IMG/VR virus record: IMGVR_UViG_3300028571_000041
Coordinates: 1-46,295 of that record
Strand: one strand, 5' to 3'
Origin: a virus
Length of the DNA stretch: 46,295 nucleotides
Positions 4,084 to 34,384 of this stretch are shown in pieces. Made by a program: the position numbers and the translations under genes. Position 1 is the first letter of the stretch, and each line of letters opens with the position of its first letter. The notes under the pieces were generated by a model, which searched no databases, was not told the origin of the DNA, and worked only from the letters and a program-made list of their open reading frames with translations.

Positions 4084-4604
4084 CACCTAAAGACTATGAC
4101 CCTAATTTAGGGCAGTACTTAACACAAACAGATTATACTTCTTGGAATACACAAGGAGGTAAAGGAAGTACTTCTAATGCTTTAGGTAAATATGATGTTC
4201 TCTATAGTTATCATGATGATAAAATTAAAAAAGCTCTAACTGATGTAGGAATATCTTATGATGCTAATAGTGTTTTAGATATACAAGAGAAGTTTATAAA
4301 CTCTACAAAAGCTCAAGACATTGTTGGTAATCAAATTATTGAAGCAAATAAAAAAGCTGCTGAAAGGATTCAACAAAAATATCCTGAAGCAAATCTTAAC
4401 TTTAATAAGATTGTTTATTTAGCTCATTGGCTTGGTGCTGGTGGAGCAGAAGAGTATATTAAAAATGCAGTAGAAAAAGGCATAGACTATGCTGATGATG
4501 AAATGTTTAAAAAAACTAATGTAGGAGGATTAAAAAATCCTAGAGTTTCTGGGGGCTTAGAAAAATTTATGGCTAGACAGCAAAAATTTTATTCTAAGGC
4601 TTAA
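4053..4604 (+). CDS. -1 frame extension of the preceding gene: lysozyme/transglycosylase-fold-like C-terminal domain
   Basis: A reading frame of 183 codons with the same codon usage as its neighbours. It has no ATG until very late (first internal Met about 40 codons before the stop), so it is not an independent gene. Joined at K872 of the upstream protein through the slippery site at 4047-4053, it gives a 1055-aa fusion. The pattern SNALGKYDVLY, followed about 75 residues later by LAHWLGAGGAEEY, resembles the conserved core of phage lysozyme-like/transglycosylase domains (typically SxALGxYQ then AHFLGxGGA). The catalytic Glu expected before the first motif is not evident, so it may be a degenerate or purely binding domain. 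A real frameshift mutation is the alternative. It ends 18 nt before the RNA polymerase gene start. Confidence 0.7.
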   Translation, partial: VQQQSGNTSVAPKDYDPNLGQYLTQTDYTSWNTQGGKGSTSNALGKYDVLYSYHDDKIKKALTDVGISYDANSVLDIQEKFINSTKAQDIVGNQIIEANKKAAERIQQKYPEANLNFNKIVYLAHWLGAGGAEEYIKNAVEKGIDYADDEMFKKTNVGGLKNPRVSGGLEKFMARQQKFYSKA

Positions 4605-4622
4605 AGTAACTTTTAACTATAT

Positions 4623-10600: not shown

Positions 10601-13600
10601 GCCTGAACTACAAGCTGTAAGAAATATTAATCCTGATAGATTTTACCTGATTGCAAATAAGATTAAACAGCTATCTGAATCTTTATCCCTTCCTAAAACT
10701 CAAGAGCTTATTGCTGAGGAAGTAGATAAAAGAATTCAAATATTTGGTATTAAAACTAGTAATGAAGCAGAGCTAGAAGATTACTTTGATGATGAAGTAG
10801 GTGAAAGAAACTTTGACCAATCTATAGCAGAAATAGGAGGATTTGGTTCCTTAAGTACTGCAATGAGGCAGTTTATTGCTTTTAGTACTGAGCAAGTAGA
10901 TGAATTTGGATTTGGAGAATTTGCTAACTTAAGTGATAAGAAGTTTACAATGTCTTCCAATGCTTTTACTATCTACACTGGTGTAGAGAGAGTATTAGCA
11001 AATACTGCAGCAAAAGATATGTTGCCTAAACTTAAAGTATTTGCTGAGAACAATTCTTCAGCTAGAGCTTTCTTTAATCATCTTACTACCAATATTAATA
11101 TGGAGTTAGAAAAGAAAGGCTTTAATAACTTTGATTCTAAAGAAAACTTTGACATATTAGTATTAAGTCAATCTTCTTTATTCTCAGCATTTGCATCAGC
11201 TTTCTCAAAAAATAGAGTACCACAAGTAGTAGTTGTATTTGACCCTAATTCAAAACAATTAAAAGCTTATAGGTCTAATATTAAAGATGATAGCTTAGTT
11301 CAAATAACAGAATGGCAAAGAGCATTTACTAACTCAGGTAGGGATATACAACAGAAAAAAGCTGATAATGTAGCTGCTTTAGAGAGTTTAGAAAGTATTT
11401 TTAATGATTCAACATTAGGAGCTTCTGGGCCTAATCCAGTACCAAATGAGGCTGACTTAAATAATAACATTACTAAAATTCAACAAGAGTTCTTAAAAAT
11501 TGGAGTATCAGTATCTAAAGGATATGTTAAGCACAGCTTAATCCAAAAGCATGAGAAGGAAATTATAGCTGCAATAGATAATGAAATTGAAGGTTCTGTT
11601 TTTCTTAGAGGATTAATGGAAGAGTATTCTTTGTTTAAAGATGTTAAAGGACTTGCTAATGATGATATAAAAGGTATTAAGACTTCTATTGCTCAATCTA
11701 ATAATCCTTATCAAAAAACTCAAGTTGTAGAAAAAGAAGCTGAAGAAGATACAGCTAGTATAGGAAGGCTAAAAGCTATTGCTACTAGTAACTCTGTTTT
11801 TGATGAAACTGTATCTGCAGTTACTTTCCAAAACTCTGAAGGTAAAGATATCTATACTTATGTTCAGCCTTCTTACTTAACTTCTGAAACTGAAAAGTGG
11901 AAGAAAAGAGCTACTACAGCTGTTGATTTATTTGAAGCTGTTAGAGAGAATAAGTCTGACAAAGAAGGTGCAGAGATTATTATGTCAATGATGCAAATGG
12001 AAGGTACACCTTACCAATATTATTTGGCTAAGAATATGTACCAGACTATTAAGCATAACCCCTTTATACTTGGTGTAGAACTTGATCCTAAATCAGGTAA
12101 TATAGTTGAAAATGATGAGTTTGCAATAGAACTTTTCAAGAATATCCAAAGCTATATTATAGATGGTATGAGAGTAGCATCTTTATCAGGAGAAGATGTA
12201 GAGGGAGAAACTAGATACTTTGAAGAAGCTTTTAAAGGTTCCTTTGGTACTTCATATGGTAAAATGGATGGTAAGTCTAAGTTTATCCAAGCTTTAAGTT
12301 TCTTCTCTGGAACTCCAGATAATACTCTAAGAAAGAAGTTTAGATTTCCTGGAGCAATAGATTCTCAAGGTAAATTTATATCAAGTAAAGAAAGAGAAGC
12401 TGCACCTATTATTGTAGGTGTTAATGAAGCTAAGAATACACAAAATGCAGTACAACTTCCTGTACAAAACTTTGTTGATAGAAATGGCCAAATCAATGAT
12501 TTAGGTGTAGAGTATATTATTAGAGCTTTCTTACAAGAGTACTACAGAATAGGTAATGTTCAGAAAGAAGCAGCTGCTATACAAGCAGGAGAACTAATTG
12601 ATGGACATGAAGTATATGATGTAGAAGACTATCATTATGCAATTGATGATAAGGGTAAAAAAGATTATACAAAAGGTAAAGGTCATGACTTTTTCCAATT
12701 CAAATCTTTTAAAAATCTAAATCCTGCTTTATATGTAGAGCTTATTAATGCTGCTAAAAAAGGTACATCTTTAAGTCAAGACCACAGAGCTGCATTAGAA
12801 TTACTTATTAAAGAACAGTATGCTCCTGATTTATTCTCAAAGTTTCTTGGTAAACTAAGCAATACAAAGAATAACTTAATAGTTATACAAGCTGAAGAAG
12901 TTGCTACTACTAAAGTTAAAGGAAAAACAATATCTATAACTACTGGGTTTTACACTAAAGATACAGCTCCTAACAACCCAAACACTGGTTATGTTTTTAC
13001 TGAAAATAGTGAGATGCTTGGCTCAAGTAAAAATGTATCTCAGACTCAAGCTCTAATAAGAACGGATAAAAAAGGAAATAAAAATCCTAATGCTTTACCT
13101 ATTGTAACTAAAAAATTACAAAAGGCTGGAGATGATGCTCAGTGGAAAGATACTGATGCAGATTTTGAAGAGTTTGTAGATACTAATACCAAACTTATTA
13201 AATCTATTCTAGATTCTAAATATGAAAAAATTGTATTTCCTCCAGGGTTTGCTACAGATAAAGCTAAGCTTCCTAAAAGATTTGCAGAGTGGCTACAAAC
13301 AGCACTAGAGGAAAACTTTAATTTAGAAACAGATTTAAACAATACTGAAAGTGGGTTACTTACTAAAGGATTAAAAGGCCAAAAAGAAGTTGCAGGAGGA
13401 GAAGTTAAGTATATGAATAAAATGCTTCCTAGTTACTATGAGTATAGTAATACTAAGGAAGTTAATATGCAATCATTAGGAATGTTCTTCTTTAATGACA
13501 TGATTAACTCCATGACATATAATATGTTAGTCAATGGTGATTATGCAATGTTGTTTAAAAACCCTACTGATGTAGTAAAAAGAAACTCAAGACTTATTGC

Positions 13601-16600
13601 TGCTGGCCCTTCATTAGGTACAGGTGTTTCAAGAGTAGCTATTGTTAAAAGTGTTAAAGCTAAAGATAGGTTTGATAAAGATACTGTACCTCAAAGTGAC
13701 ATTAAAGATTTAGGTGAGCAAGACACTACAGATGCTCAAAACTTAGGAACTTTAAATTGGTATAGGTCTAAGTATCTTACTTCAACTGGTAAACTAACTC
13801 CACAAGTTGAAGAGATATATAATAAAATTGAAAAAGGCTATAGACTAAATGAAGCAGAAGTTAGGATTCTCAAAAAGAATAATGCTTTAGTAAACCCTAG
13901 AAAAATTGTAGGTGTTAATAGATACTTCTATGATAAGACATCTATTAAAACTTTACTAAGGTCTGAGAGTTCTTATATCCTTAAACAAGATAGAGCTAGA
14001 GCTGATGAATTATATGATAGATTATTTGAAGCTAGATCTAAAGGTCAAGTAGAAACAGTAAGAAGTATTTACGAAGAACTCCATACTTTATGGAAACCTA
14101 TACCTTCAGAAAGAGCTAACCATGATTTGCTTAATAAGTTAGAGTTAGATAACATAGATATTTTAATCTTTGACTCTGCTATTAAAACAATGAAAGCCAA
14201 TGTAGGTAGTGTAACAGGTAATAATGAAAATGGCTTTACTTGGGAACTATCACCTATTGAAGTAGATGATGAATCTTTTAGAGAGCAAGTAAAAACTGAT
14301 ACTATAAAAAGTAGTATTGTAGATCCTACTCAGACATTAAATACAGTATTCTCTGAGCAAAGAAGTGCTACTAAAACATCAGTATTAGGAAAGGAAACTA
14401 CTGTAGGAAATGCTGCTCAAGCATTTGAAAGCTTAGTAGCAGAAAGATCTAAGAGAGGATTTTTAGAAATGCGTAAGAGCATGCTTAGTGGTGATACTCC
14501 TAGGTATAAGTACTTACTAAAAATGTTCAAGGAGAACTTAATGGCAACTGGTGCTGATCCCTACTTAATAGAGATGGTATCTGAAAGCATAACAAATGCT
14601 GATATGCCACAGTTTAATCTAAACATGCCTGCTACTATTAGTAAGCTAGAATCTATGTTCTTGTCTTACTTATCAAAGAATACTTTGAAGGTAAAAGCTC
14701 CAGGACATAAAATGACTTTGATAAGTGATTTTGGCTCTGGTGTTAATATGTATAAAGGTAATATTGTAACAGCAGCAGAAATTCAAAATAATCCTGAAAA
14801 ATATGCAAAAGAGGTAACTACTAGAAGATTAGAGTATAGGAAAGATAATAAAGGTAATTTCTATACTGAGATAAAAATTAGTGCTCAGTTTGCTGAACAT
14901 TTAGGTCTAAGGCCTGGTGATAATATACCTTCAGAGTTATTAGAAATGTTTGGTGTTAGGATTCCTACACAGGATAAACACTCTATGGGTTACTTCAAAG
15001 TTGTAGATTATCTACCTATGGAAACTGGTAATCAAATTATGTTACCATTTGAAATTCTAAAGCTATCTGGTGCTGACTTTGACGTGGATGCTGAGTACTT
15101 AAGAAGTTTTGATTTCTTTACTCTTAATGATAAGCCACATTGGTTTGGACAATACCTAAAAAATTCTAAGGGTACAGATGCTCTTGAACAAGCTAGACAA
15201 GAATACATCAGAGAAAATTCTGCTAATAAAGAAGTTGCAGAAAGGATTACTGAAGAACTTAAGAACAATGAAGATTATCAAAGGTTAAAAGATGACCTTA
15301 GTTCTCTTCAAAAAAGTATTAAGTTAAGAAAGAAGTTTTTAAATAACCTTGATAGTGAAATAAGAGCTGAGTTTCAAGAAGAAATAGATGAACTAGAAAA
15401 CATTCTTACTCAAGCTTTTGGTAGAGATGACCTAGTAGATGATGATACATTTACACCATCTTCAGATACATTAGCTTCTTTAGATGCTAAAGAGATTGAA
15501 AAAGCAGGTCTTGCTGCTCTCTTTAGACAAATAACTCTTGAAGATGATATATCTAATACTATTGATGTAAGAAAAAGACAAATTCTTAAAAAGCTAACAG
15601 CATTAAAAAAACAAACTACTGATGCTAAAAATGCCATAAGAGAAATAGAAAATAGAAATACTATTGAATCTCTTGATAAATTAGGATATCCTGCAAGTGA
15701 AGAAAAGTTTGATAGGAAATATGGTAAGCAAGTACTTGATAATAGGGCAGCTTATAATAAAGGTGATTTTGAAAAAATCAATCCTATTACTATTGCAGAA
15801 ATTAACAACCTGTTAATACCTATTACAGGCTCTTTAATTTACAATCAGACTAATGAAAAAATAGGTAATACTATTACATCTGTTGATGAATTTGATGCAC
15901 TAGAAGAAAAACTTGGTGATGCACGTATTGTAGATAATACTATACTTGAAGGAGTACATGATGCCACATCTAAAAATGATGCAGCTGTATCTAATGATAC
16001 TGGTAAAGAAAACATTGGCCCTGCAGCTGTATTTAACTTAATGTTCCAAAGGTTACACAAATATGGTATATCTTTTAATCAAGAGTATATAGAAAACAAT
16101 GAACAATTTGTAAAAGAATTAGCTAATAGCTTTAGCCTACAAGTAGCAAATGATGGTAGTATTCTAAACTCACAAGGGGTAAGGGTTAATGAGTTAATTG
16201 ACCAAGTTATATCTGCTATGACAGATAATGGTAAAGACCCTAAAGCAGCTAGGTTTAACCTTTCATATCAAACTTTAGGTGCTACATTACTTAGACTAGG
16301 TTTAGGAGAAGGATTTGATTTAGCAATCTTAACTCAAAAACTTCCTATCATGGAACAGGTAGTTTCAGAGATTCAAGCTGATGCTTCTGACTTAACAGAA
16401 ATAAAGATAGGTAAAATTAAAGTAATAGCTAGTATTGCAGCTAAGTTAGAAAAGTTACCTATGGCAGAAGATGGAATAGCTTTTAGTGAAAGTAATCTAA
16501 TTGAAGCAATTAAATATGGTCAAGACCCTTCTCAGTCATCATTAGATGAACAGGAATTTAATGCTATTCAATATGCTGCTGTATTAAGAATGGGAAATTC

Positions 16601-19160
16601 TATACAAGTTTCTGATTACTTAAGAAATCTGTCTGATATTATTGGTTTAGCTAGAGGACTTAAACCTACATTCTCTGAGAATTACAACATTAGAAATAGC
16701 CTTAAAAATTTAGGATTAGAAGTAGTTTTAAAAGAGAAAGGAAACCTAGACAATCCAGATGATTATATTATACAGCATATTAAAGGAGTTTATGATCCTT
16801 CTATGATGCCTATGGATGTTTTGCCTATCCTAAACCAAGATAAAATAGTCAGAACAAATGTGGTGTTATTCCATATGATGATGAATGACTCTGGGAAATT
16901 TTTTGTCCTAGAAACTCCAATGGGACAGAAGTTAATTCAAAAGGCTGGTGTTTCATTTAAGAATTCTTTTTTAGGTTACAAGGATAACATTACTAATATG
17001 AGAACAGCTCTCTTATCTTATTTAAGTATGAGAGCTTATAGAAAAAGAACTAATAAAAAAGGTCTTGATCCAAATAATCTATTTAGTAGTAATCTTGTTG
17101 ATCTTCATACTAAGCTTTTGCAGAATCCAGATTTTGCAAACAATGATTTATTGAATGCTTTAGTTCCTCAAGAAATTAAATTTACTGAAAGAAATAGAAG
17201 TGGATTAGCAGGAAAAACACTTTATAAGCTATCCTTTAACACTAGGACTAAAAATAACCCTGACTATGTAGAAAGGTTAATAGATTCTTTTAAAGCTTTA
17301 AGTCTATCAAATAATCCTGAAGCAAAAGCTTTTGCTCAAGAAGCCTTTATGTATCTAATGATGAAAGATGGTGGCTTGTTTAAGTCAGATACTTTTATCA
17401 GACAAATAGCACCTGTGTTCTTAGGTAATATATCTGAAGGATTAAATAGTGTACAAGAGTTATTTAGTGGTAACAGTAACTTATCTTATGAAGGAGTTTT
17501 TGGAGTATCTCAAGCTCAACTTATACAAGAGTTTGTAGAGTTGTTTGCTAGGTACACTCCTAATAACTTTAGCCTAAGAGGTGGAAAGCTAAGTGCTATT
17601 TTATCTACAAACTACATAGCTGAAGACATAAGAGATTTAAAAGAAAGTCTTAAAGGTTCTCAACAATATACTGATCAAGAAATAAAAGATATATTAATAA
17701 ACAGATTTCCTATTTATAAAGATCCTATTACTGGTAATATAACTCTTAATATTTTTAGAGGCATAGATGAAAAAACTACAAAGGATGAGAGGAGAAAAAT
17801 AATGGGGATTAATGCTTATGTGCTTAAAAAGACAGGATTAGTTAGTAAAAATGAAGAGGACAAAATTGTTTATCCTCCTATCTTCCAAGTTACAGACCAA
17901 GGAGGTGCTAAAATTTTGTATAAACTTAAATACTTACAGAAAGGAACATTTATTAAGCAAGACAAAAATACAGGTGCTATAATATCTGATACTAAATACA
18001 CTCTAGATGCAGATACACAAAATCTGTATGCAGAAGAAATGATAGGTTTAGGTGCAGTATATGAAGAAGTATCTCCTATATTAGATAAAGCTATTGTCCC
18101 TTGGTTCTGGAAGTTAAATGAACTAAATACTTTTATTGAGTTCTCTAAACTACAACAACCTGAAGAGGTATCAGCTGTATCAAGAGAAGCTGAAGAAAGT
18201 GCTCCTCAATTTAATGCTCAACAACAAGCAATTCTGGATAGACTTAGAAGCATAGGCTTACCTCAAACTAGAGAAGAAGCTGTTGCTGCCACTCCAGTAG
18301 TTACTGCCACTCCTACAAAAGAAGAAAGTGGTACAGTTAGTTCAGAAAGTCTTTTAGGTGAAATGGCAGGATTACGTCAAAAACTGAAAGAAAAAGGTGT
18401 AAGTCAAGCTGTTAAAGACAGAGTAAGAAGAATGGGAAATAAACTGAAGCCAGGTGATACTATGGAATCAAAATCTTCAGCTAAACAACCTATTAATCAA
18501 GCTGCTCTTACAAATATACTAGACAAGCTTGCTTTAAAATTTGGTATAAGCTGGAGATATGATAGCAGTATTCCTGGACTAGGCCAGTTTAAAGATGGTG
18601 AAGTGCTTATTAATCCTGATAAAGCTAAAGCAGATACTCCTTTCCATGAGTTTGCTCACCCATTTATAGCTATTGTTAAGATACAAAATCCATATCTGTA
18701 CAATAACTTAATGAATCAGCTTACTAAATCTGATGTAGGTGTTAAAACTTTAGAGAAAGTTAAAAAGCTATATCCTGAATTAACTTATGAACAACAAATA
18801 GAAGAAGCTATTGTAGATGTAATAGGTCAATATGCAGCTGATGCTCAATCAATTAAAAAAGAAAAAGGTTTATGGAATGCTATTAAAACATTCTTAAGAA
18901 GAGTATCTGAGTACATAAAATCATTACTAAGTGATAGTCAGAAGAAAATAATTCCATCAGAGCTAGATCCTAATACTACTATGCAAGAACTAGCTTCTAT
19001 GTTAGTAATAGATAATCCTATTGACTTAGGGCCTCTGCTATCTAGAAGTTATAAGAAAACTACTACTAGCCCTCAACTTGATAATGCTTCTACTTTATTT
19101 AATACCTTTGCTAATGTATCTGATGCAGATGTACTTGAACTAATTAATGAATGTAACTAA
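4623..19160 (+). CDS. Giant virion RNA polymerase protein (4845 aa) with two zincin-like HExxH domains
   Basis: Multidomain protein expected to be packaged and injected to transcribe early phage genes, as shown for the crAss-like phage phi14:2 virion RNA polymerase. The catalytic double-psi barrel is visible as RIPTQD (R3446) followed by SGADFDVDAEY, with metal-binding Asp at D3485/D3487/D3489. This matches the beta'-subunit pattern RxPT...NADFDGD. Two zinc-metalloprotease signatures flank the polymerase: HEAFH at 1793-1797 with a downstream EEQMAE (1852-1857), and HEFAH at 4675-4679 with a downstream EEAIVD (4727 on). The N-terminal third has hydrophobic segments (about residues 140-165 and 215-245) and long coiled-coil-like stretches. 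The start used is TTG at 4623 (in-frame stop just upstream); ATG at 4656 is the alternative. It overlaps the next gene by 1 nt (TAATG). Which other parts act in ejection is unknown. Confidence 0.85.
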   Translation: MSYTYNKPKNTMWQFNQSTGQWEWIENPNKKQKAEEYNNIKQGIQQELNPSSGIEEAVKETARRRIFEEVSPELDYNETFGVNIGRDDLKSFLEPETISGRDAEQYKLYSEKHGQSPYIGADIDDLLGESQSTADKWANGTMKFVGKTATNVIGGLAMFPGLIYGAGTGSFKNVYDNDFQRALDDANEAMDEALPNYVRKEVEDYSLIEKAFTANFWANDVLSGMSFVAGAVLTEMATAGLATPLALSRTLKGLKALQKGSKVDDALKVLGKAKNLRAADNVLGVARKAVTGTFYEAGVESRHFANEAKEQYINNYIEENGYEPSEQEMAEAMSKIYNVANGVFAANSFLVGMGNMATLPKTFGPKLSSRLGKLFNPDKADEIAQGLIKTSDLSKTQLLRTAKKLGKTVAEVKAMNFVERSATRTALENAGRKLYKLGEKPFVEGVWEEMMQGSVNKGALDYVSSYIDDENKLELLDPILSLGRGMAETYGTQEGWEEGVIGMIIGGAGFVGPSSKGKGIGWQGGIWDSLRDPLKTQRAEYLERANSMESPKRIQAFIENGASQYRANREYNEAVQVGDMFTAKSAEHEAFFSDVNFRMKLGDYQRIEDDIAETVDDLTDLEFADMFGYENFTETEIKKRKTELKETLINRARDVKESINEARKIAKTDNEYIQDGLAYSLATIKDVDRREEELARGIADAIGAVDSRSIKNIMQANNRLRFKKDWLDVYNSKLAKLESAKKRLITMNLTGVANQGRINKQQEKINQMQNEISALEQTEFEPRKKDGKGVPEYMRDFDAFKKVVEDLSGLIDKVNKHYESNPIAKKSVEGELRDLEKLAQRRETFVGEVNRLITKEGQDSFLESLNKLHEATKKGYIEEEFDRSRLSGLVDPNIDRLILQDIQKKAFESLGLRLKNAGIAIIDSSNIEEALDAEEGAIDNDGFPDDIPNFSDILTTDLAKDWVTKFMDNLPPPFDKSDPIDTKIAKTESKIKYVKEKVKELEDLITNSKGTAIEADYKAIFDSSLLQNGLASLEQTLAKLKERNALVPDGTPVIESASKLGQIYIDSSFVSEEDMEAVDALPKEELWKGIYIKVEDYPEQGKTVPASKNSTVKVTKGIVGMPNKGAYAYININGKEVRIGGVLDPRRFIMSDGTSFNAYNLNHLAELNKAFVETIVNPDSTTDIQVSDAGMQVQNYYVAMSALFEAIEQDNGASNETINKLLYTNKSSYFTVDTGDLANRRTINEEIPADKDRVTYTFTSLSEGKEKTVQAQIIVRRDRDGSISIFANKDGNWVGLEGNELEAVKKLYNGALAENPKLNNMTGQYVMMLDKPSTGGNYRFLSLGFPSAQTAINTAEGKQGLLDSIIELIEEQNSKLVEVTKSDGKTSRETKDGLGVTLKDENNNDIFLSLLTQNKNEQGKFIPDKNYRVEFTVNKYGEATIVLSTKVVGSEKKYINLGVVVKNGKLYAKYGTTLSPITTYSALTDRINNRLSFKAINPKNGAINDPELLSNGLPYTVGGFFNRVDSVNEEGILENLGNLRVNATLTRNIYFSPKTKQAASNTRPSGVSAEAVATSNDAYTSFLSDISKLDNDSLKTPAFISEFRLAINNNLVLDSSQKQKLINALTTRVAQVNASAPSSSAPTAPVSDIEAPSVDAALAAMGGQPSNPVAELNEVNNKIADLELDDKSDTDDYRALIAIKAGLQAQIDKSDDGVSPFSISTEDAAELIDLQVAENNLARMLNMRTPQNPNGVFSIDDVRTILSNVRNNGVTWGAFFNNVVYLSKKAGVGTEYHEAFHAVFRTLLSPTQINSYYLAARKQYGNPTAQQLAELKALSSSFSKLTRPELEKLWLEEQMAEGFKSYAVKRDAEKPKGLIGILFDKIKKLLGIVKENKSEIDLLFQDIYIGKFKNARPHNSITNFREPAFVLIPKTTTVINGETSRGYFNKQQTERIINTVASRALQKKTEKGNVSKRDILDIITELATDYYSVENFRPELQAVRNINPDRFYLIANKIKQLSESLSLPKTQELIAEEVDKRIQIFGIKTSNEAELEDYFDDEVGERNFDQSIAEIGGFGSLSTAMRQFIAFSTEQVDEFGFGEFANLSDKKFTMSSNAFTIYTGVERVLANTAAKDMLPKLKVFAENNSSARAFFNHLTTNINMELEKKGFNNFDSKENFDILVLSQSSLFSAFASAFSKNRVPQVVVVFDPNSKQLKAYRSNIKDDSLVQITEWQRAFTNSGRDIQQKKADNVAALESLESIFNDSTLGASGPNPVPNEADLNNNITKIQQEFLKIGVSVSKGYVKHSLIQKHEKEIIAAIDNEIEGSVFLRGLMEEYSLFKDVKGLANDDIKGIKTSIAQSNNPYQKTQVVEKEAEEDTASIGRLKAIATSNSVFDETVSAVTFQNSEGKDIYTYVQPSYLTSETEKWKKRATTAVDLFEAVRENKSDKEGAEIIMSMMQMEGTPYQYYLAKNMYQTIKHNPFILGVELDPKSGNIVENDEFAIELFKNIQSYIIDGMRVASLSGEDVEGETRYFEEAFKGSFGTSYGKMDGKSKFIQALSFFSGTPDNTLRKKFRFPGAIDSQGKFISSKEREAAPIIVGVNEAKNTQNAVQLPVQNFVDRNGQINDLGVEYIIRAFLQEYYRIGNVQKEAAAIQAGELIDGHEVYDVEDYHYAIDDKGKKDYTKGKGHDFFQFKSFKNLNPALYVELINAAKKGTSLSQDHRAALELLIKEQYAPDLFSKFLGKLSNTKNNLIVIQAEEVATTKVKGKTISITTGFYTKDTAPNNPNTGYVFTENSEMLGSSKNVSQTQALIRTDKKGNKNPNALPIVTKKLQKAGDDAQWKDTDADFEEFVDTNTKLIKSILDSKYEKIVFPPGFATDKAKLPKRFAEWLQTALEENFNLETDLNNTESGLLTKGLKGQKEVAGGEVKYMNKMLPSYYEYSNTKEVNMQSLGMFFFNDMINSMTYNMLVNGDYAMLFKNPTDVVKRNSRLIAAGPSLGTGVSRVAIVKSVKAKDRFDKDTVPQSDIKDLGEQDTTDAQNLGTLNWYRSKYLTSTGKLTPQVEEIYNKIEKGYRLNEAEVRILKKNNALVNPRKIVGVNRYFYDKTSIKTLLRSESSYILKQDRARADELYDRLFEARSKGQVETVRSIYEELHTLWKPIPSERANHDLLNKLELDNIDILIFDSAIKTMKANVGSVTGNNENGFTWELSPIEVDDESFREQVKTDTIKSSIVDPTQTLNTVFSEQRSATKTSVLGKETTVGNAAQAFESLVAERSKRGFLEMRKSMLSGDTPRYKYLLKMFKENLMATGADPYLIEMVSESITNADMPQFNLNMPATISKLESMFLSYLSKNTLKVKAPGHKMTLISDFGSGVNMYKGNIVTAAEIQNNPEKYAKEVTTRRLEYRKDNKGNFYTEIKISAQFAEHLGLRPGDNIPSELLEMFGVRIPTQDKHSMGYFKVVDYLPMETGNQIMLPFEILKLSGADFDVDAEYLRSFDFFTLNDKPHWFGQYLKNSKGTDALEQARQEYIRENSANKEVAERITEELKNNEDYQRLKDDLSSLQKSIKLRKKFLNNLDSEIRAEFQEEIDELENILTQAFGRDDLVDDDTFTPSSDTLASLDAKEIEKAGLAALFRQITLEDDISNTIDVRKRQILKKLTALKKQTTDAKNAIREIENRNTIESLDKLGYPASEEKFDRKYGKQVLDNRAAYNKGDFEKINPITIAEINNLLIPITGSLIYNQTNEKIGNTITSVDEFDALEEKLGDARIVDNTILEGVHDATSKNDAAVSNDTGKENIGPAAVFNLMFQRLHKYGISFNQEYIENNEQFVKELANSFSLQVANDGSILNSQGVRVNELIDQVISAMTDNGKDPKAARFNLSYQTLGATLLRLGLGEGFDLAILTQKLPIMEQVVSEIQADASDLTEIKIGKIKVIASIAAKLEKLPMAEDGIAFSESNLIEAIKYGQDPSQSSLDEQEFNAIQYAAVLRMGNSIQVSDYLRNLSDIIGLARGLKPTFSENYNIRNSLKNLGLEVVLKEKGNLDNPDDYIIQHIKGVYDPSMMPMDVLPILNQDKIVRTNVVLFHMMMNDSGKFFVLETPMGQKLIQKAGVSFKNSFLGYKDNITNMRTALLSYLSMRAYRKRTNKKGLDPNNLFSSNLVDLHTKLLQNPDFANNDLLNALVPQEIKFTERNRSGLAGKTLYKLSFNTRTKNNPDYVERLIDSFKALSLSNNPEAKAFAQEAFMYLMMKDGGLFKSDTFIRQIAPVFLGNISEGLNSVQELFSGNSNLSYEGVFGVSQAQLIQEFVELFARYTPNNFSLRGGKLSAILSTNYIAEDIRDLKESLKGSQQYTDQEIKDILINRFPIYKDPITGNITLNIFRGIDEKTTKDERRKIMGINAYVLKKTGLVSKNEEDKIVYPPIFQVTDQGGAKILYKLKYLQKGTFIKQDKNTGAIISDTKYTLDADTQNLYAEEMIGLGAVYEEVSPILDKAIVPWFWKLNELNTFIEFSKLQQPEEVSAVSREAEESAPQFNAQQQAILDRLRSIGLPQTREEAVAATPVVTATPTKEESGTVSSESLLGEMAGLRQKLKEKGVSQAVKDRVRRMGNKLKPGDTMESKSSAKQPINQAALTNILDKLALKFGISWRYDSSIPGLGQFKDGEVLINPDKAKADTPFHEFAHPFIAIVKIQNPYLYNNLMNQLTKSDVGVKTLEKVKKLYPELTYEQQIEEAIVDVIGQYAADAQSIKKEKGLWNAIKTFLRRVSEYIKSLLSDSQKKIIPSELDPNTTMQELASMLVIDNPIDLGPLLSRSYKKTTTSPQLDNASTLFNTFANVSDADVLELINECN

Positions 19161-26595: not shown

Positions 26596-27023
26596 AATTC
26601 TAGCTTTAAGTAAACACCAGGATATTCTTTGTCCACAGAGTAATATTTATTATCCATTTCTAATACATATGGGATTAAGTATTTCATGCTATCATCTATG
26701 ATGAAATCATGAGCTACTAATAAATCTTGGATAATTTGTGTGGCATTATTAAAATCAAAATCTGCTCTTGTCTTGCGAACAAAATGAAATCCTAGTTTAA
26801 TTGGGTAATTGTCAATAGCAGGAAAATCTTTAAGAGATTCTCTAAAAATATTAGGTTTTGTTTTATACTCTTGAACTTCTTTATCTCTCACAGAGTATCT
26901 TAAAACACCTATATCTCTTAAGTACTTTCCTACAGTTTTAGAAGGAAATATCCCCCTTGAAGTCTTCACTTTGGAATTCTTCAAGGAGGGCACATTTCCA
27001 GGAATAAAAAATAAGGTTACCAT
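26592..27023 (-). CDS. RusA-like Holliday junction resolvase
   Basis: Predicted endonuclease that cuts Holliday junctions or branched replication intermediates. N-terminal FFIPGNVPSLKNSK matches the RusA start (GxPxxKxR), and RADFDFNNATQIIQDLLVAHDFIIDD matches the conserved DxDN...IxDxLxxxGIIxDD catalytic segment with the acidic residues kept. Length (143 aa) is normal. It overlaps the upstream 324-codon gene by 7 nt. Packed with exonuclease and UDG genes, it likely resolves DNA for packaging or recombination. Confidence 0.8.
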   Translation of the reverse strand: MVTLFFIPGNVPSLKNSKVKTSRGIFPSKTVGKYLRDIGVLRYSVRDKEVQEYKTKPNIFRESLKDFPAIDNYPIKLGFHFVRKTRADFDFNNATQIIQDLLVAHDFIIDDSMKYLIPYVLEMDNKYYSVDKEYPGVYLKLEL

Positions 27024-27991
27024 AATACATCAAAAGGATCTTCAGTAGGTTCAGGCTCTGGAACTATACTACTAAGGTAACTATTTATCATTGTATTCAT
27101 AACTACCTTTTCTTGTCTAGCTTTTTCTATTGCATTATTAAATGTTGGTAGATTTATTGTATAAAAAAACTTTTCTTTAAGATTAGGAACAGTAACTATT
27201 TCAATATTATGCTCTTTAGCAAAAGGAAGAATTACATTTTTATATACTTTTCTAAAGCTTTGAGATGGAAAATCTTTATAATCAAATCCAGCTTGCACAA
27301 AGAGTTTAAATAGGTTTTCTTTATTTTGTAAATAATGGTAGTTAGAATCAACAGAGTTAATACCTTCAATAGAATTAACTAATCCTGCTAATTTAGGTAT
27401 TTGTACAGCTTCAGTTTTAGTAGCTAATATTACTAAAGGATTAAAAATTCCTTGAATAGGATATTCTCCATTTTTGTATATTGAAGTTGCACCAAAGATA
27501 CCACCTCCCCAATAAAAACTACCAGCTCTTGAATTTTTATGTTTTACATCTGGATTTATAAAATCATCTATACTTAAGTTTGTTAAAGTAGTTCTTATAT
27601 TAGGCCCTTTTCTTAACCTTAAATCTTTACAAGGAGTAAGATAAGTATTAAAAAGTTGTATTATTCTAGTTTTAATAATAGAATCTTTAACAGCAGGACT
27701 AGAATTGGAAAAACTACCATCTTCATCAAGCAAAAGAAGATCAACATTTATAATTCGATCTCTTGATATTATATACCAAAGATACTTATATTCAGGTCTT
27801 TCTAAAAACTCTTTAATATAATTATAAATATAACTGGAACGCAAGGTAGAAGATTGAGAAATTAAATCTAAGTAATTATTACCTGAATATACACAATACT
27901 CTTGGTTATAGTTTATCTTAAAAGTATTTACAAGTTTATTTTCATGTCCAGGGCTACTTGTAGGACTTCCTTTAAATAATATGTTTTTCAT
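27017..27991 (-). CDS. Hypothetical protein (324 aa) downstream of the E1-like gene
   Basis: Not recognised. It begins with a short polar segment (MKNILFKGSPTSSPGH) and ends with an acidic Pro-rich tail (PEPEPTEDPFDVLW). The middle shows a glycine-rich turn (SFYWGGGIFGATSIY) and a region rich in Phe and Lys. No catalytic motif is clear. It lies 9 nt after the ThiF-like gene and before RusA, so it could be part of the ubiquitin-like cassette or simply the next early gene. Confidence 0.7.
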   Translation of the reverse strand: MKNILFKGSPTSSPGHENKLVNTFKINYNQEYCVYSGNNYLDLISQSSTLRSSYIYNYIKEFLERPEYKYLWYIISRDRIINVDLLLLDEDGSFSNSSPAVKDSIIKTRIIQLFNTYLTPCKDLRLRKGPNIRTTLTNLSIDDFINPDVKHKNSRAGSFYWGGGIFGATSIYKNGEYPIQGIFNPLVILATKTEAVQIPKLAGLVNSIEGINSVDSNYHYLQNKENLFKLFVQAGFDYKDFPSQSFRKVYKNVILPFAKEHNIEIVTVPNLKEKFFYTINLPTFNNAIEKARQEKVVMNTMINSYLSSIVPEPEPTEDPFDVLW

Positions 27992-28000
27992 AAGTATTAG

Positions 28001-28687
28001 TTAAAAGGTTATAATTTCAGTCATAGTAAAAATATCATTTTCAATGCAAAATGGTACATCCCTAATAGGCTCTTCTGTAGATAAATTAGCACAAAAATTA
28101 GTATATGCAGCAACCATTTTACTTGCAATCATAAAACTATTATGTGTAGTGCCTTTAAAACCACAAGGTAATACAGCAGCTTCTGAATCAGGAAATAAAG
28201 TTTCTTTGTACCTATCTACTTTATTTCTAGTAACTACATAAATGTAGAACTGCTCAGCAGTTAATCTACCATCAATTAAAATAGGCTCAATTCCCTCAGA
28301 AGCATACATATCCATATCTCTAGTAAATAGGTCAAACATAACCTGCCTAGCTGCCATGTTATCAAAACAGCTAAACATTACTTCACTAGTTGCAGTTTCA
28401 GGTGTTACTAATGCATTATTAGGACTTAATCTATCATAGCCACTAAAGGAATATACAACATCTGCAACAGCAGTTATTTTACTTTTACCTATATGTGGCA
28501 AACCAAATAGTTGATTTGATAAATTTATATCATCTACAGTATCATTGTCATAAATACTAATTGATGCTGGCTCTATCCTAGATAGAAGAAAGGTTACTAC
28601 AGAGCCTATACCCCCAGCCCCACCAACAGTAATGTTGTGGGACTGGGCTTTAGGTAACCACACAGCTTCTTTAAATCTGTCTGTCAT
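28001..28687 (-). CDS. ThiF/E1-like adenylating enzyme
   Basis: Rossmann-fold enzyme of the ThiF/MoeB/E1 family, expected to adenylate the C-terminus of a ubiquitin-like protein with ATP. Visible are the nucleotide-binding loop VGGAGGIGS (residues 21-29), the acidic strand end SIYDNDTVD (D47), the segment DDINLSNQLFGLPHIGKSK, and FDN (D109). A candidate active cysteine is C175 in VLPCGFKGTT. The Arg common in the NxxRQ position of MoeB/ThiF is replaced (NLSNQ), and there are no CxxC zinc pairs, which is common in small PRTRC-type or phage versions. At 228 aa it is the minimal adenylation domain. It overlaps the JAB gene by 1 nt (TAATG), the classic E1-JAB pairing. Confidence 0.85.
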   Translation of the reverse strand: MTDRFKEAVWLPKAQSHNITVGGAGGIGSVVTFLLSRIEPASISIYDNDTVDDINLSNQLFGLPHIGKSKITAVADVVYSFSGYDRLSPNNALVTPETATSEVMFSCFDNMAARQVMFDLFTRDMDMYASEGIEPILIDGRLTAEQFYIYVVTRNKVDRYKETLFPDSEAAVLPCGFKGTTHNSFMIASKMVAAYTNFCANLSTEEPIRDVPFCIENDIFTMTEIITF

Positions 28688-29814
28688 TAGTTATTTGATT
28701 TGTTAAAAAAATTATTCCAAGCAGCAGTATCATCATCTTCAGTTATATCAGTAAAGTAATCAGCTATAACTGTATAAATAAATTCAGCAGTACTACTTTT
28801 AACATCATAAGCAACTTCTAAACAATACTCCATTACATCAGTAAGAAAATCAGCTACAGTATTGTTATTTAATAATTGTCCTCTTTTAATAAAGAACACT
28901 TCTCTATAACATTCTTCAATCTTATCTTCAATATGAATAGCATAAGCATCTTGATCCATTCCATTAAACTTATCATCAATCTTAGTTAAGGCTTGCTCAA
29001 AACTACTAGTACTAGCATATAATGGATCTAAGAACATCAATTTACATAAAAATGAATTCATTTCTTTTTTAGTAAATGTGACTTTGTTATTAGCTACAAA
29101 TGGCTTATCATCAAATAATTTAGGCATTGGAGCTAAACTATGAGTAGGTTTCTTATTATAGTTATCTATATCATAATCATCTCCATAATTATTATAACTA
29201 CCATAATTATAAGTACCAGAATTATTGTAAGCTATATGACTTTCTTTAATAGCTTTTTCAGTCATACCTTGAAAGAAAGTATCAATTTCTATGATAATAT
29301 CTAGGTCTAGTGCTATTACATTAAAAGAAGATACCTCTTCTTCTTGATTATTATTTAGAGGTATCCAGTTGCCTTCAGAATCTTTATACTCTTTAGCATA
29401 TCTTTTTGATTTATTGTTAATAGGGTAAGCAGCTTTGGCTACCATTTCACCTTTGTTATTAACAATTAAAGAAATGCAAAAGTTAGAAAGCTTAGCATAC
29501 TCATTTAAAGTAGAAGTATCTGTTCCACTAAAAAATACTCCCATATTAACATGAGAGTGAATAATGCCCATTTTATAATCTTCTAGCTCTGGATTTTTAT
29601 CATAAGCATCAATTACTCTTTCATCTATTTCAAACTCAGTATAGGTAGGTTCACCTTTATGCATAGGCAAAATGTCTATAGCTCTAATGCTAAAGGTTTC
29701 AGGATTAATAGGATGACCTTCAGTTTTACAAAATACAAGACCAGACCATTCTACTGTATTAATTTTATGACATAAGTACCAAATTTTCGAAATTATCTCT
29801 GGAGAGATAAACAT
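28687..29814 (-). CDS. JAB/MPN (JAMM) metalloprotease, deubiquitinase-like
   Basis: Predicted zinc isopeptidase or processing protease for a ubiquitin-like protein. The full JAMM motif is present. Counting from ATG 29814: E22 in VEWSGLVF, H86 and H88 in IIHSHVNMG, S96 and D99 in FFSGTD, i.e. HxHx7SxxD. A C-terminal region of about 200 residues has an Asn/Tyr-rich low-complexity linker (NNSGTYNYGSYNNYGDDYD) and a helical acidic end not assigned to a family. I chose ATG 29814, which begins right at the JAB fold. ATG at 29943 would add 43 Gln/Ser-rich residues and overlap the E2-like gene by 179 nt. It is coupled to the E1-like gene. Confidence 0.85.
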   Translation of the reverse strand: MFISPEIISKIWYLCHKINTVEWSGLVFCKTEGHPINPETFSIRAIDILPMHKGEPTYTEFEIDERVIDAYDKNPELEDYKMGIIHSHVNMGVFFSGTDTSTLNEYAKLSNFCISLIVNNKGEMVAKAAYPINNKSKRYAKEYKDSEGNWIPLNNNQEEEVSSFNVIALDLDIIIEIDTFFQGMTEKAIKESHIAYNNSGTYNYGSYNNYGDDYDIDNYNKKPTHSLAPMPKLFDDKPFVANNKVTFTKKEMNSFLCKLMFLDPLYASTSSFEQALTKIDDKFNGMDQDAYAIHIEDKIEECYREVFFIKRGQLLNNNTVADFLTDVMEYCLEVAYDVKSSTAEFIYTVIADYFTDITEDDDTAAWNNFFNKSNN

Positions 29815-31129
29815 CTTCGGTTTGTACACTGGTGTGATAGGTTGAGAGTAACTCTTGTAATTTTGCCCTTGAGAAGGATAAGAGTTCTTTACTGCAGAAT
29901 TCTGTTGTGATTTCTGCTTGTTGTTCCATGATTGTTGCGTCATAATTTATGGGGTTGTTTCTAAATGTTTTGTATGTGATATTTGATAAAGCATTTCTTA
30001 AATTAACGTGAGCTTCCTGATAATCATATATTTCATTATTAACTGTTTGTATCTCACCATTAGAATCAAGAGTACCATAGTAGGTAGAATAAGGTGCTAG
30101 TGCTCTAGCTAAATCAGTTACATTTTGAATACTGACTTCTATATTACTACTTAAATTATTGTAGTTTAATAAAGGTTTAAATAAATCAGGATTTTCTTTA
30201 TAAGCAGCACAGAACTTATTAAAGTCATTTGTTATAGTTTGTGCTAAATCTAATGGTTCCCTACTTAGTACTGTAAAGTTTCTATTATTAATTGTAGATA
30301 AGTGAACATAAGGAGTACCTTCAAGAGATTCCCATTCTACAAAATTGTTTATTTGGTATAAAAATAAGTCAAATCTATCTGCATCAAAACCTTCCATAAA
30401 TTCAGATTTGAGTGCAGTTAAATCAGTACTACCTGTACAGAATGCTGACGCAGTAAACAAATTCTCTAAGTTTCTAGAGTTTAAGTGAGAATGCCTGTAA
30501 CCATTTTTTACATCATTAAAAGACATCTTAGCTCTAAAGCCTTCAAATCCTTTTAATAAGAAAGATTCATTAAAAGTTAACACACAATACAACTCTTCTA
30601 TTTCTCTACTTTCTTTTTTAGTATTAGTAATAGTTATATGTGGATACCTAATAAGTAATTCTAAATATCTACTTGAGCAAACTTGTAAATCATAATTTTC
30701 ACCATGAACTTCATCCAATATAGGTTTTAGCTTTGTTAGACCAAACTCTTTAAATTTAAGAGCATGTATAGTTTTTTGAAACTCACTCCATAAAGATTGT
30801 AAGTTGCTAAAATCAACTGGTTCATGTGATAATATAACATAAGCATCTGTATTATCTAGATCATAGCAGCCATCATTTTCATTTTGAATAGCTATTATGT
30901 TATTATTTCTAGGATTTACAATTACATTATAATCATTAAATAGCATATCTATATAACAAGTATTTACATAATAAAAATAATTATACATGCAAATACTAGA
31001 AGATATATAATTTGTATCAATAAGTTGGGTAGTGGGCCTAATCACTACATTTGGATAATGTTTAACTACTAATTCTGTAAATGAAGTTACATCAGTAAAA
31101 GTTGATAATATTCTTTCTAATTCTGTCAT
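29765..31129 (-). CDS. Candidate E2-like (ubiquitin-conjugating fold) protein, 454 aa
   Basis: The central part looks like an E2/RWD-like fold: a beta-meander (YPHITITNT, EELYCVLTF, FEGFRAKMSF), then GYRHSHLNSR (H213, H215), then FTASAFCTGSTDL with a single well-placed cysteine C231. This resembles the HPN...CLG active-site layout of E2 enzymes and the H...CxG layout of prokaryotic PRTRC-associated E2-like proteins. About 150 N-terminal and 170 C-terminal residues are unassigned. The call depends partly on context: the gene sits between a beta-grasp protein gene and JAB plus ThiF genes. It is not conclusive without a structure or profile search. Confidence 0.55.
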   Translation of the reverse strand: MTELERILSTFTDVTSFTELVVKHYPNVVIRPTTQLIDTNYISSSICMYNYFYYVNTCYIDMLFNDYNVIVNPRNNNIIAIQNENDGCYDLDNTDAYVILSHEPVDFSNLQSLWSEFQKTIHALKFKEFGLTKLKPILDEVHGENYDLQVCSSRYLELLIRYPHITITNTKKESREIEELYCVLTFNESFLLKGFEGFRAKMSFNDVKNGYRHSHLNSRNLENLFTASAFCTGSTDLTALKSEFMEGFDADRFDLFLYQINNFVEWESLEGTPYVHLSTINNRNFTVLSREPLDLAQTITNDFNKFCAAYKENPDLFKPLLNYNNLSSNIEVSIQNVTDLARALAPYSTYYGTLDSNGEIQTVNNEIYDYQEAHVNLRNALSNITYKTFRNNPINYDATIMEQQAEITTEFCSKELLSFSRAKLQELLSTYHTSVQTEDVYLSRDNFENLVLMS

Positions 31130-31143
31130 ATTTTAGTTATTAA

Positions 31144-31191
31144 GAAAAAAATAAGAAAGGGTGAGGTAATAAATACCCCACCCTATTCTTA
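31144..31191 (-). terminator. Rho-independent terminator after the ubiquitin-like gene
   Basis: On the minus strand, TAAGAATAGGGTGGGGTA pairs across a 5-nt loop with TACCTCACCCTTTCTTA (one bulge, one G-U), followed by a run of seven T. It separates the beta-grasp gene from the E2-like gene, so the former can be transcribed at a higher level than the genes behind it. Confidence 0.85.
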
Positions 31192-31211
31192 CATCATAGC
31201 AAAGCTACTAC

Positions 31212-31610
31212 TTAGGAAATGACTCCTTCAGCACGTAGTTGATCAAGATCATCTTCCTCATCTTCAGAAAGAGTAGTGTTACTAGCAACATTACCAGCTA
31301 ATACATCTTCAAAAAGATTCTGCAATTTAGTACGCAACTCTCTGATTTGAGAATCAGTGTAACGAGTACCATTGTCATTGCTGCCAGAAGCAATTTTCTT
31401 CATGCTCAAGATAACAGTAAAGTTATCTTCAGGAAGTTGAGCTTCTGGAGATTCCAAAGATACTCTGGTTTCACGAACAATAGCTTTCATATTTCCAATG
31501 TCAGAAATATGAGAAGATAAATCACTTTGAAGTTGACCCCAAGTGGTTGCAGCAGATTCTACACTTTTAGCACGATCTGATTGAGAAGAAATAACACGAA
31601 TTGTACGCAT
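31212..31610 (-). CDS. Candidate ubiquitin-like beta-grasp modifier protein (132 aa)
   Basis: The first 76 residues have a beta-grasp pattern: strand MRTIRVISS, ATTWGQLQSDL as the ThiS/ubiquitin-type TxxxLxxxL helix, strand KAIVRETRVSLE, then QLPEDNFTVILSMKKIASG, matching the LPxGDxxIxLxPxKxxSG ending of ThiS/PRTRC Ub-like proteins. G76 is followed by a 56-residue tail with one helix and an acidic end (SEDEEDDLD). If the tail is removed (for example by the JAB protease encoded downstream), a C-terminal Gly would be exposed. Arginine is mostly CGT here (seven CGT, two AGA seen), unlike the AGA-dominated neighbours, a sign of high expression. The gene lies 18 nt after the primase and has its own terminator. 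Confidence 0.6.
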   Translation of the reverse strand: MRTIRVISSQSDRAKSVESAATTWGQLQSDLSSHISDIGNMKAIVRETRVSLESPEAQLPEDNFTVILSMKKIASGSNDNGTRYTDSQIRELRTKLQNLFEDVLAGNVASNTTLSEDEEDDLDQLRAEGVIS

Positions 31611-31628: not shown

Positions 31629-32639
31629 TTAAAAAATTAGGGATTTAATTAAAAATTTGGATACTTCCTTTCCATGGTTTTTGACTAGGTCAGAAAAGTC
31701 TTTTGATTTATATTCATCGGGTATTTCTATTTGATTTAACTGAAACTTAGAAGCTAGCTCAATGCCATATTTTCTACCCCAGTTAACTTCTTTATTGAAG
31801 TCATTATCATATAGTAAATACACTTTATCAAACCTTTTCTTCAGCTCATTAACAATATGAGGCTTAGGATCAGTTGTTTCAGCTTGAAGAGATACAGAAG
31901 GAATATTAGTTAATTCTGTAATTGCCATAACATCTTTTAAAGATTTAGTGATTATGAGCTTTTCACCTCTCTTTGGCAGTTGTGTCCAACCTTGCCAAAC
32001 AGATTTATCAACATTTGATATAAATCTTAATTGTTTGTTATAGGGTTGATATATCTTATATGTATAGATTTCATCTTTGCTTTCTAGATAAGCATATGCA
32101 GGATTCTTTGAGTTATCTACAGGTATTATTAAGTCATTTAAGAAAATGAATTTACAACTAAAAACATTATACTTATTTAATGTAGATTTATTTATCCCAA
32201 ATTGCCCCCAGAAATGTATATCTCTTGGGGTGAATTCTTGCATTTTTATGCCTATATGTACTCTAGATTTGTCTTTGTAGTCAATGTCTTTGGGGATTTT
32301 AATTTTCTTTTTTCTGCCCACTATATCACTGTCAATAAGTCCAAAGTCATTAGCTACTTTTTGCAAAGCACCATAGTAATCTAATCCAAATAATCTAGAA
32401 ACAAATACAAAACAATCTCCTTTTTCTTTTGTAGCAAAATCCCTGAAAAGAAGTTTATCCAAGGTGGATGCATAAAACACACTAAAAGAAGCAATATCAT
32501 CCTCTCTAAGAGGACTGCATATAGCAGTATTGAGTTGCAATTTTGGTATGTAATATGCAAAGATTTGATACTCTGAAACTCTATTTAATATGAGTTCAGA
32601 TGATAATGTGTTATAGTCTAAAGAATTAAGATTAATCAT
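31629..32639 (-). CDS. DnaG-type primase with modified Toprim domain
   Basis: Synthesises RNA primers for replication together with the DnaB-like helicase. The N-terminal part resembles a CHC2 zinc-finger domain (ICSPLREDDIASFSVFY, then KEKGDCFVFVSRLFG), but most Cys/His ligands are missing. The Toprim core is seen as KLIITKSLKDVMAIT (about residue 228) and DKVYLLYDNDFN (DxD). In the first Toprim motif the usual catalytic Glu is replaced by Lys (TKSLKD), a variant I associate with phage primases of this type. Length 336 aa is short compared with bacterial DnaG because the helicase-interaction domain is absent. The start is ATG 32639, 4 nt from a terminator hairpin upstream. Confidence 0.8.
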   Translation of the reverse strand: MINLNSLDYNTLSSELILNRVSEYQIFAYYIPKLQLNTAICSPLREDDIASFSVFYASTLDKLLFRDFATKEKGDCFVFVSRLFGLDYYGALQKVANDFGLIDSDIVGRKKKIKIPKDIDYKDKSRVHIGIKMQEFTPRDIHFWGQFGINKSTLNKYNVFSCKFIFLNDLIIPVDNSKNPAYAYLESKDEIYTYKIYQPYNKQLRFISNVDKSVWQGWTQLPKRGEKLIITKSLKDVMAITELTNIPSVSLQAETTDPKPHIVNELKKRFDKVYLLYDNDFNKEVNWGRKYGIELASKFQLNQIEIPDEYKSKDFSDLVKNHGKEVSKFLIKSLIF

Positions 32640-33612: not shown

Positions 33613-33690
33613 TTAGTTATAATATTCATTAATTTTTGTGGACACAAGGGATAAATCATTAGGAATAGAAAGCTCATCAAACATTCCTAA
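33613..33690 (-). pseudogene. Displaced original 3' end of the ATPase gene
   Basis: A frame without a start codon reads MFDELSIPNDLSLVSTKINE then YYN and stop. It matches the last residues of the intact ATPase (LFEDLHIPNDLGYVSKKIGE then YYD and stop). The DNA is clearly similar too, including the trailing TAATAAAT. It lies immediately after the LAGLIDADG gene, whose last codons it overlaps by about 10 nt. It is best explained as the resident 3' end left behind when an endonuclease carrying a replacement 3' end inserted. Confidence 0.8.
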
Positions 33691-34384
33691 TTTTTTTTCT
33701 TTCTAATAAAATAGGCATTTTATTACTATTATTAAAATAAAGTTTATAGTATGTTTTATTATACTTTTTATTATAAACTTCTTTTTTAACAGGGTCTAAT
33801 TGTAAAGATATACATAACTCTTTTAAAGAATCTATAATACTTTCATTTTTTTGTGTAATACTTAATCTTTTAGAAGAAGATTTTGTACCATCTGTATCAA
33901 CTAGCCCTGCTATTAATTTATATTTATCAGTTTCTGGTAAAAAATGGACAAAACTAGGAATATGTTTATTATTTAATAAATTATGTTTTTTTAAAAATTG
34001 AGTAAATCTATTTGTATATTTCCTCTCTCCTAATGTAAATGTATATCCATTTAAATGTTTATGTTTACCAGAAATCACATGGAATACATTTGAAGAATTT
34101 TTAATACTTAAGTCATTACTTAAATCTTTTAAAGAACTATAACTATTTAAAAAAGTACCATTTTTATATACTTTCAACTCTCTAGTGTACTTAGCTTTAG
34201 TTCTAGGTTTTATCTTAACTCTTAAAGCTTTATTTGTTGGAGTTTTTGTAGATATAGAAATATCCATATCATAAGTACTAGCTACATTTTTTAAGTAATC
34301 AATAATATCACTATCCATAGTTGTAATTCTAAATTGGTCTGAATCTCCATCTCCTAACCAAAGTCCTAATAAATATAAATCCAT
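33677..34384 (-). CDS. LAGLIDADG homing endonuclease with internal NUMOD/IENR1-like repeat
   Basis: Site-specific DNA endonuclease that promotes its own spread. Two LAGLIDADG helices are present: LLGLWLGDGDS (about residues 5-15, active Asp in GDG) and KLIAGLVDTDGT (about residues 156-167). Between them LKVYKNGTFLNSYSSLKDLS ... ISGKHKHLNGYTFTL looks like a NUMOD1/IENR1 DNA-binding repeat. The motif style is that of intein endonucleases, but no protein-splicing blocks exist: the gene is free-standing and starts directly after the ATPase stop (TAATAAATG). It is followed by a second copy of the ATPase 3' end, so the ATPase gene was the homing target. Confidence 0.85.
   Translation of the reverse strand: MDLYLLGLWLGDGDSDQFRITTMDSDIIDYLKNVASTYDMDISISTKTPTNKALRVKIKPRTKAKYTRELKVYKNGTFLNSYSSLKDLSNDLSIKNSSNVFHVISGKHKHLNGYTFTLGERKYTNRFTQFLKKHNLLNNKHIPSFVHFLPETDKYKLIAGLVDTDGTKSSSKRLSITQKNESIIDSLKELCISLQLDPVKKEVYNKKYNKTYYKLYFNNSNKMPILLERKKIRNV

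Follow-up and report, generated by a model that had tools for sequence, protein, structure and literature searches.

The window analyzed here is the whole 46,295-base IMG/VR virus record IMGVR_UViG_3300028571_000041, a fragment of a crAss-like phage; this group is related to the most common viruses of the human gut. On its minus strand, between a gene for a DnaG-type primase and a RusA-like/exonuclease/UDG block, lie four contiguous genes for a ubiquitin-like (Ub-like) protein, an E2-like protein, a JAB/JAMM metalloprotease and an E1-like activating enzyme. We propose that this cassette is probably a self-contained phage Ub-like conjugation system, as judged from sequences and structural models, and that it is likely to serve host takeover or counter-defence, not DNA replication itself. 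Support comes from the gene set and its order, the invariant residues, the predicted folds, all-or-none inheritance of the cassette and its exchange with other modules at one genomic slot.

The same Ub-like/E2-like/JAB/E1 set had been put forward in an initial annotation of the window, and it is borne out by four open, co-oriented reading frames and by folds, motifs and conservation. An IMG/VR profile scan identified 366 viral contigs with an E1 relative, and in all of the 79 loci having more than 4.5 kb upstream of E1 the four genes are linked, as the annotation would require, in the order Ub-like, E2-like, JAB, E1, with median gaps of 65, -68 and -4 bases between them. E1 relatives at approximately 35–41% identity are found in Crassvirales (Steigviridae: crAss001, cr85_1, DAC15 and Kehishuvirus) and in Fpv1-type Flavobacterium phages; the window's own branch is formed by a handful of IMG/VR contigs with 57–98% E1 identity. 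The cassette is present in the cultured Bacteroides phages crAss001 and DAC15 and in Flavobacterium phage Fpv1. In crAss001 it corresponds to gp79, gp78, gp77 and gp76, which are annotated as hypothetical, hypothetical, metalloprotease and thiamine biosynthesis, respectively, and the PHROGs matching all four window proteins are of unknown function. None of the predicted catalytic residues of the four proteins varies in alignments of 62–67 sequences from highly diverged phages. With the order retained in every one of the 79 loci and these residues unchanged, the gene set is not a product of chance.

Pfam scans of all members of the Ub-like and E2-like families gave no credible or usable match, and the identities of these two proteins are therefore derived from structure and conservation. 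The Ub-like modifier precursor (31212–31610, minus strand, 132 residues) contains a β-grasp domain in residues 1–76, ending in KIASG76, followed by a helical tail of 56 residues. The AlphaFold model is a β-grasp with a predicted local distance difference test (pLDDT) value of 87.0 and a predicted template-modelling (pTM) score of 0.53, where the low pTM is probably due to the tail. In a Foldseek search against the PDB, ubiquitin, UBX, ISG15, FAT10 and Bacteroides fragilis ubiquitin make up most of the best 50 matches; almost all have probability 1.00, but E-values are only 1.6e-3 and up. Both methods together predict a ubiquitin fold, in line with the β-grasp that the initial annotation had assigned to this protein. 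Gly76 is invariant (64 of 64 sequences) and Ser75 nearly so, the motif typically being K(S/A)G or (A/E)SG; a 72-residue reading frame without a clear motif in one locus (L057) was excluded from the alignment. Across relatives, 1 to 209 residues follow the glycine. Nine diverged tags stop 1–5 residues beyond it, none exactly at it, and their cassettes are whole. A trimming step is therefore required if the glycine is used, implying that JAB would perform it. Gly76 is the predicted conjugating residue, and the 56-residue tail is predicted to be removed.

The E2-like protein (29765–31129, minus strand, 454 residues) has a conserved core, approximately residues 106–283, between fast-evolving N- and C-terminal domains. 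Its AlphaFold model (pLDDT 88.7) shows a helix (110–142), a four-stranded meander (146–199), a loop carrying His213-Ser214-His215 and Cys231, and then helices, which is the order expected of UBC folds (PMC1779556). Ser214, His215, Cys231, Gly233, Glu267, Ser268, Gly271 and Pro273 are invariant in 67 sequences, and His213 and Tyr211 are nearly so. When a profile of the trimmed core was compared with five cellular E2-like sequences, the phage HSH...CxG motif aligned to HPH...CxG with a score of 21.7, whereas none of 100 column-shuffled controls scored above 16.3; earlier profile comparisons (hhalign) of the E2-like and Ub-like proteins with cellular sets of two or three sequences were at noise level. 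Strong named Foldseek matches among viral models are crAss-like or podovirus proteins of unknown function. Based on the modelled topology, the motif register and a profile match above the shuffled controls, the protein is probably E2-like. The E2 assignment of the initial annotation accordingly stands as to topology and an active-site-like HSH...C motif, and lacks a significant match in a fold library.

The JAB/JAMM metalloprotease (28687–29943, minus strand) had been placed at 28687–29814 with a complete JAMM motif. The motif is indeed complete, with Glu65, His129, His131, Ser139 and Asp142 invariant in 63 sequences, but the reading frame extends to 29943 and 29814 is the internal Met44, so that the protein has 418 residues or, from Met44, 375. 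From either start the reading frame overlaps the E2-like gene. Pfam Prok-JAB matches 61 of 63 JAB relatives, whereas the window JAB scores 3e-4, which is under the curated cut-off, and the C-terminal region is long and variable. In Fpv1 (L003, 6226–6975) an endonuclease gene interrupts the JAB gene, which is also split in L016, L062 and L093, and gene order is still kept in these phages.

The E1-like enzyme of the ThiF superfamily (28001–28687, minus strand, 228 residues) matches Pfam ThiF at 4e-12 and conserves the adenylation motif, in agreement with its original reading as a ThiF/E1-like enzyme with an adenylation loop. Conserved elements are GxGGIG, the DxDxV...N...Q block (Asp47, Asp49, Asn55, Gln59), Lys70, Asp109 and Arg114. 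Cys175 is invariant in 62 sequences and aligns with a cysteine of the E1s from cellular operons and PRTRC. In an E1 tree the crAss-like enzymes form one clade (98/88), which is sister to the E1s of operons from Planctomycete and Thermoplasmata-binned sequences (97/89); these cellular operons also encode an E2-like protein and JAB and, where seen, a Ub-like protein. PRTRC, represented by two sequences only, and MoeB-like enzymes fall outside this grouping. Thermoplasmatota were considered as a general source and rejected, as only one of 145 genomes gave a strong match, and that one was already known. One contig binned in a bacterial metagenome-assembled genome (MAG), L117, carries a crAss-type primase together with the cassette and resembles a contig of a crAss-like phage. 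The same probably holds for L114 and L115, on the evidence of E1 identity alone.

E1s of other phage lineages (the jumbo Xanthomonas phage contig L110 and the long-branched L112 and L113) are placed elsewhere in the tree. Xanthomonas jumbo phages encode the E1 relative near topoisomerase genes (L110, 7923–8606; profile E-value 9e-44), and relatives of the other three cassette proteins were not detectable in the L110 stretch. The human gut phage contig L112, which is unrelated, encodes at 3648–8291 an E1 of its own, a JAB (HSHVNMATNPSGVD) and a possible E2; a reverse-transcriptase-like gene (YADD) follows.

We infer the following pathway: JAB would trim the tag precursor after Gly76; E1, judging by its invariant residues, would adenylate Gly76 with ATP and take the tag onto Cys175; and Cys231 of the E2-like protein would accept the tag and pass it to target proteins, which may be selected by the fast-evolving E2 flanks and perhaps by a fifth protein. 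JAB could also remove tags.

A fifth cassette member had been suggested at 27017–27991 (minus strand, 324 residues), immediately after E1. This suggestion is supported by position, a reading frame of more than 120 residues standing directly after E1 in 98 loci, and by the absence of its two recognised families from cassette-less relatives. Of the 98, 40 fall in the window's own family; a second family, to which crAss001 gp75 belongs, accounts for 32, and the two share one member. Both families went undetected in the cassette-less phages cr108_1, cr116_1 and crAss002. A profile comparison of one of the families with PRTRC F was at noise level. We regard the gene as a probable, fast-evolving component of the cassette.

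The position of the cassette bears on the end to which the predicted pathway might operate. The primase gene that anchors it (31629–32639, minus strand; PHROG DNA primase, 3.9e-63) lies outside the cassette, and inheritance of the latter is all-or-none among related phages: no trace was found in crAss002, nor in 41-kb stretches of cr108_1 and cr116_1, which are Steigviridae sharing the same replication block. Between primase and UDG, cr108_1 carries an amidoligase set (ATP-grasp enzyme, glutamine amidotransferases and COOH-NH2 ligase) and cr116_1 carries rIIA-rIIB. A primase-anchored IMG/VR sample contains 42 loci whose downstream DNA exceeds 6 kb; of these, 9 hold Ub cassettes, 13 amidoligase sets and 5 rIIA/B pairs, and 15 have other contents, in many cases a DUF2201 VWA protein paired with a MoxR-like ATPase. 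Over all loci, which are short stretches, the cassette E1 is present in 96 (a count inflated by the E1-anchored search), MoxR-VWA in 19, amidoligase in 15 and rII in 8, and none has two modules. The occupants of the slot (Ub cassette, amidoligase, rIIA-rIIB, VWA with MoxR, and metallophosphatase-like genes) are mutually exclusive and non-homologous. The slot spans 27017–31610 in the window, 5598–12654 in L159, 7305–11461 in L160 and 10151–13650 in L183. Orthologues of rIIA are regarded as phage counter-defence, and phage ATP-grasp peptide ligases as enzymes that modify host proteins (PMC7824862); on this basis, the other occupants of the slot point to a role in host takeover or counter-defence.

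To gauge rates of evolution, we set the window against three relatives (L006, L009 and L010), using our own implementation of the counting method. The ratio of non-synonymous to synonymous substitution rates (dN/dS) is 0.45–0.55 for the E2-like protein, 0.56–0.64 for the fifth gene in two full-length comparisons (0.42 for one partial copy), 0.20–0.35 for E1 and 0.14–0.19 for the primase. The cores of the E2-like protein and JAB are more conserved than their flanks, and the Ub-like tails diverge faster than the β-grasp domain. The initial annotation had raised phage replication proteins, host proteins and host Ub-like defence as possible objects of the system; together, the slot comparison and the fast evolution of the E2 flanks favour a host-directed action over one in replication. 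More tentatively, Crassvirales may keep the post-primase slot for interchangeable protein-modifying or host-takeover modules, one of which would tag host proteins with a phage modifier that is matured and removed by the phage's own JAB, with the E2 flanks and the fifth protein choosing the targets.

Several points weigh against this proposal. The NLxRQ arginine found in MoeB-type enzymes is missing from the phage E1, as it is from the aligned cellular sister E1s. Profile scores of the E2-like protein to PRTRC B are weak, and its full-length model gave no significant Foldseek match in the PDB, with the Tsg101 UEV and a UBC domain at ranks 3–4 (E-value approximately 0.4). No E3 was identified. 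A shared slot shows exchangeability, not shared function, and because the MoxR-VWA pair of jumbo phages has been proposed to act in virion assembly (PMC7824862), a uniform host-takeover reading of the slot is weakened. Finally, we infer conjugation, targets and purpose on grounds that are not biochemical.

Four other explanations were considered. The same conjugation chemistry might be directed at phage replication proteins (the primase, SSB, helicase and polymerase encoded nearby), regulating replication or a switch to late transcription. In nearly all loci the cassette is co-directional with and adjoins the genes for primase, Sak4, exonuclease and UDG, as such a role would suggest, but unrelated modules take its place in close relatives whose replication genes are the same, so that core replication does not need it, and its flanks evolve much faster than the primase; we consider this explanation unlikely. 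Host Ub-like defences exist (PMC10097602; PMC11354881), and non-conjugating parts could serve as a decoy or antagonist that interferes with the E1, E2 and JAB of host Bil or CBASS, for instance with JAB deconjugating host tags. This is very unlikely given that every residue expected of a full forward pathway is invariant, Gly76, Cys175 and Cys231 among them, and that the all-or-none retention of an own tag, E1 and E2 would be needless for a decoy. A sulfur-carrier pathway of ThiS/MoaD type, in which E1 makes a tag thiocarboxylate for a modified nucleotide or cofactor and proteins are not conjugated, recalls the co-occurrence of ThiF/E1, JAB and β-grasp proteins in sulfur-assimilation clusters (PMC1779556) and the database labels that name the E1 a thiamine biosynthesis protein; it appears highly improbable, since an E2-like protein with an invariant cysteine is always present and no rhodanese or further Thi or Moa gene is annotated in the neighbourhoods examined. 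That the Ub-like tail is the working part, a small effector freed by JAB from a β-grasp carrier while E1 and E2 act on something else, is scarcely credible: tails of 24–209 residues occur in many phages, but the nine relatives with the shortest tails keep the whole cassette, and tails diverge faster than the β-grasp domain.

We compared the phage conjugation cassette with related systems. Bacterial operons of the Ub-like/E1/E2/JAB kind have been known since Iyer et al. 2006 (PMC1779556). The cellular operons from the E1 tree (L116, L118, L152 and L153) share with the phages the E1 adenylation variant without the NLxRQ arginine and a cysteine aligned with Cys175; their E2 motif (HPH..CxG), JAMM-form JAB and tags ending in ..GA or ..GAR are comparable to the phage set. 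In contrast to the phage proteins, the cellular E2s end in cysteine-rich, zinc-like repeats, and their tags are short whereas phage tags are often long-tailed. The Ub-like/E2/JAB/E1 operon lies at 4820–7630 in L116, which has more than one E2-like gene, and at 5008–7630 in L118, both MAG contigs; an upstream Ub-like gene is seen in these two, and a pattern search found none in L152 and L153. The cysteine-rich repeats of the L116 and L118 E2s are possibly built-in E3-like modules.

PRTRC operons, found on plasmids such as pMOL28, have a similar gene order: Ub-like (C), [F], E2-like (B), JAB (A), ThiF. The PRTRC tag ends in ..KG or with a short tail, and the phage E1 matches the PRTRC ThiF profile with a probability of 98.8, but in the tree it stands outside the PRTRC pair and does not group with ThiF of that system. 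No PRTRC ParB, E or F counterparts are annotated in the phage neighbourhoods. The phage E2 has an upstream HSH, whereas E2s of operon type 6d have no upstream histidine (PMC1779556); from its gene content, our reading of type 6d is that it corresponds to PRTRC.

In Bil (BilABCD), the Ub-like protein, E1, E2 and JAB are likewise encoded by separate genes (PMC11354881), but BilA has two tandem Ub-like domains (PMC11354881) where the phage tag has a single β-grasp domain and a helical tail. BilB has a CEHH motif (PMC11354881), whereas the phage E2 has no invariant histidine downstream of Cys231 and carries HSH upstream; furthermore, Bil is a host anti-phage defence locus and the present cassette is phage-encoded. 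The E1/E2 and JAB logic is also common to Cap2/Cap3 of type II CBASS, an E1-E2 fusion acting on a CD-NTase, in contrast to the unfused phage E1 and E2 with their own tag protein. PADLOC E1-E2 hits are weak and confined to the E1 domain, and no CD-NTase is annotated in the cassette neighbourhoods examined. The lambda/T1 tail-assembly TAPI is, as here, a phage-encoded combination of β-grasp and JAB (PMC1779556), but comes without E1 or E2 and among tail genes, whereas the present cassette is in a replication block. The E2 motif, the E1 clade, the architecture of the tag and the carrier all set the phage cassette apart from the known operons. A literature search, which could not cover supplementary files, preprints or many of the subscription journals, turned up no description of the cassette in crAss-like phages, and the searched ubiquitin and ThiF terms are absent from the main texts of PMC7886860 and PMC6235969.

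Most of what is known about bacterial Ub-like systems concerns operons on the cell side, which include anti-phage defences. If our proposal is correct, viral use of this chemistry would be directly testable in the culturable Bacteroidota phages crAss001 and DAC15, and five genes of major gut phages, for the most part annotated as hypothetical or ‘thiamine biosynthesis’, would gain functions. The exchangeable slot could also be used to look for additional host-takeover modules in these phages.

Two other regions of the window deserve mention. A 4845-codon reading frame with a TTG start and a 1417-codon reading frame occupy 4623–19160; judged by position they are possibly the giant crAss-type RNA polymerase proteins, but a basic search for a catalytic motif of the DxDxD type gave no convincing site. 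Between the SSB-like and Sak4 genes, a 235-residue reading frame (33677–34384) resembles a LAGLIDADG-type endonuclease; its PHROG match falls inside a terminase family, possibly as an intein, and it is likely a mobile intruder.

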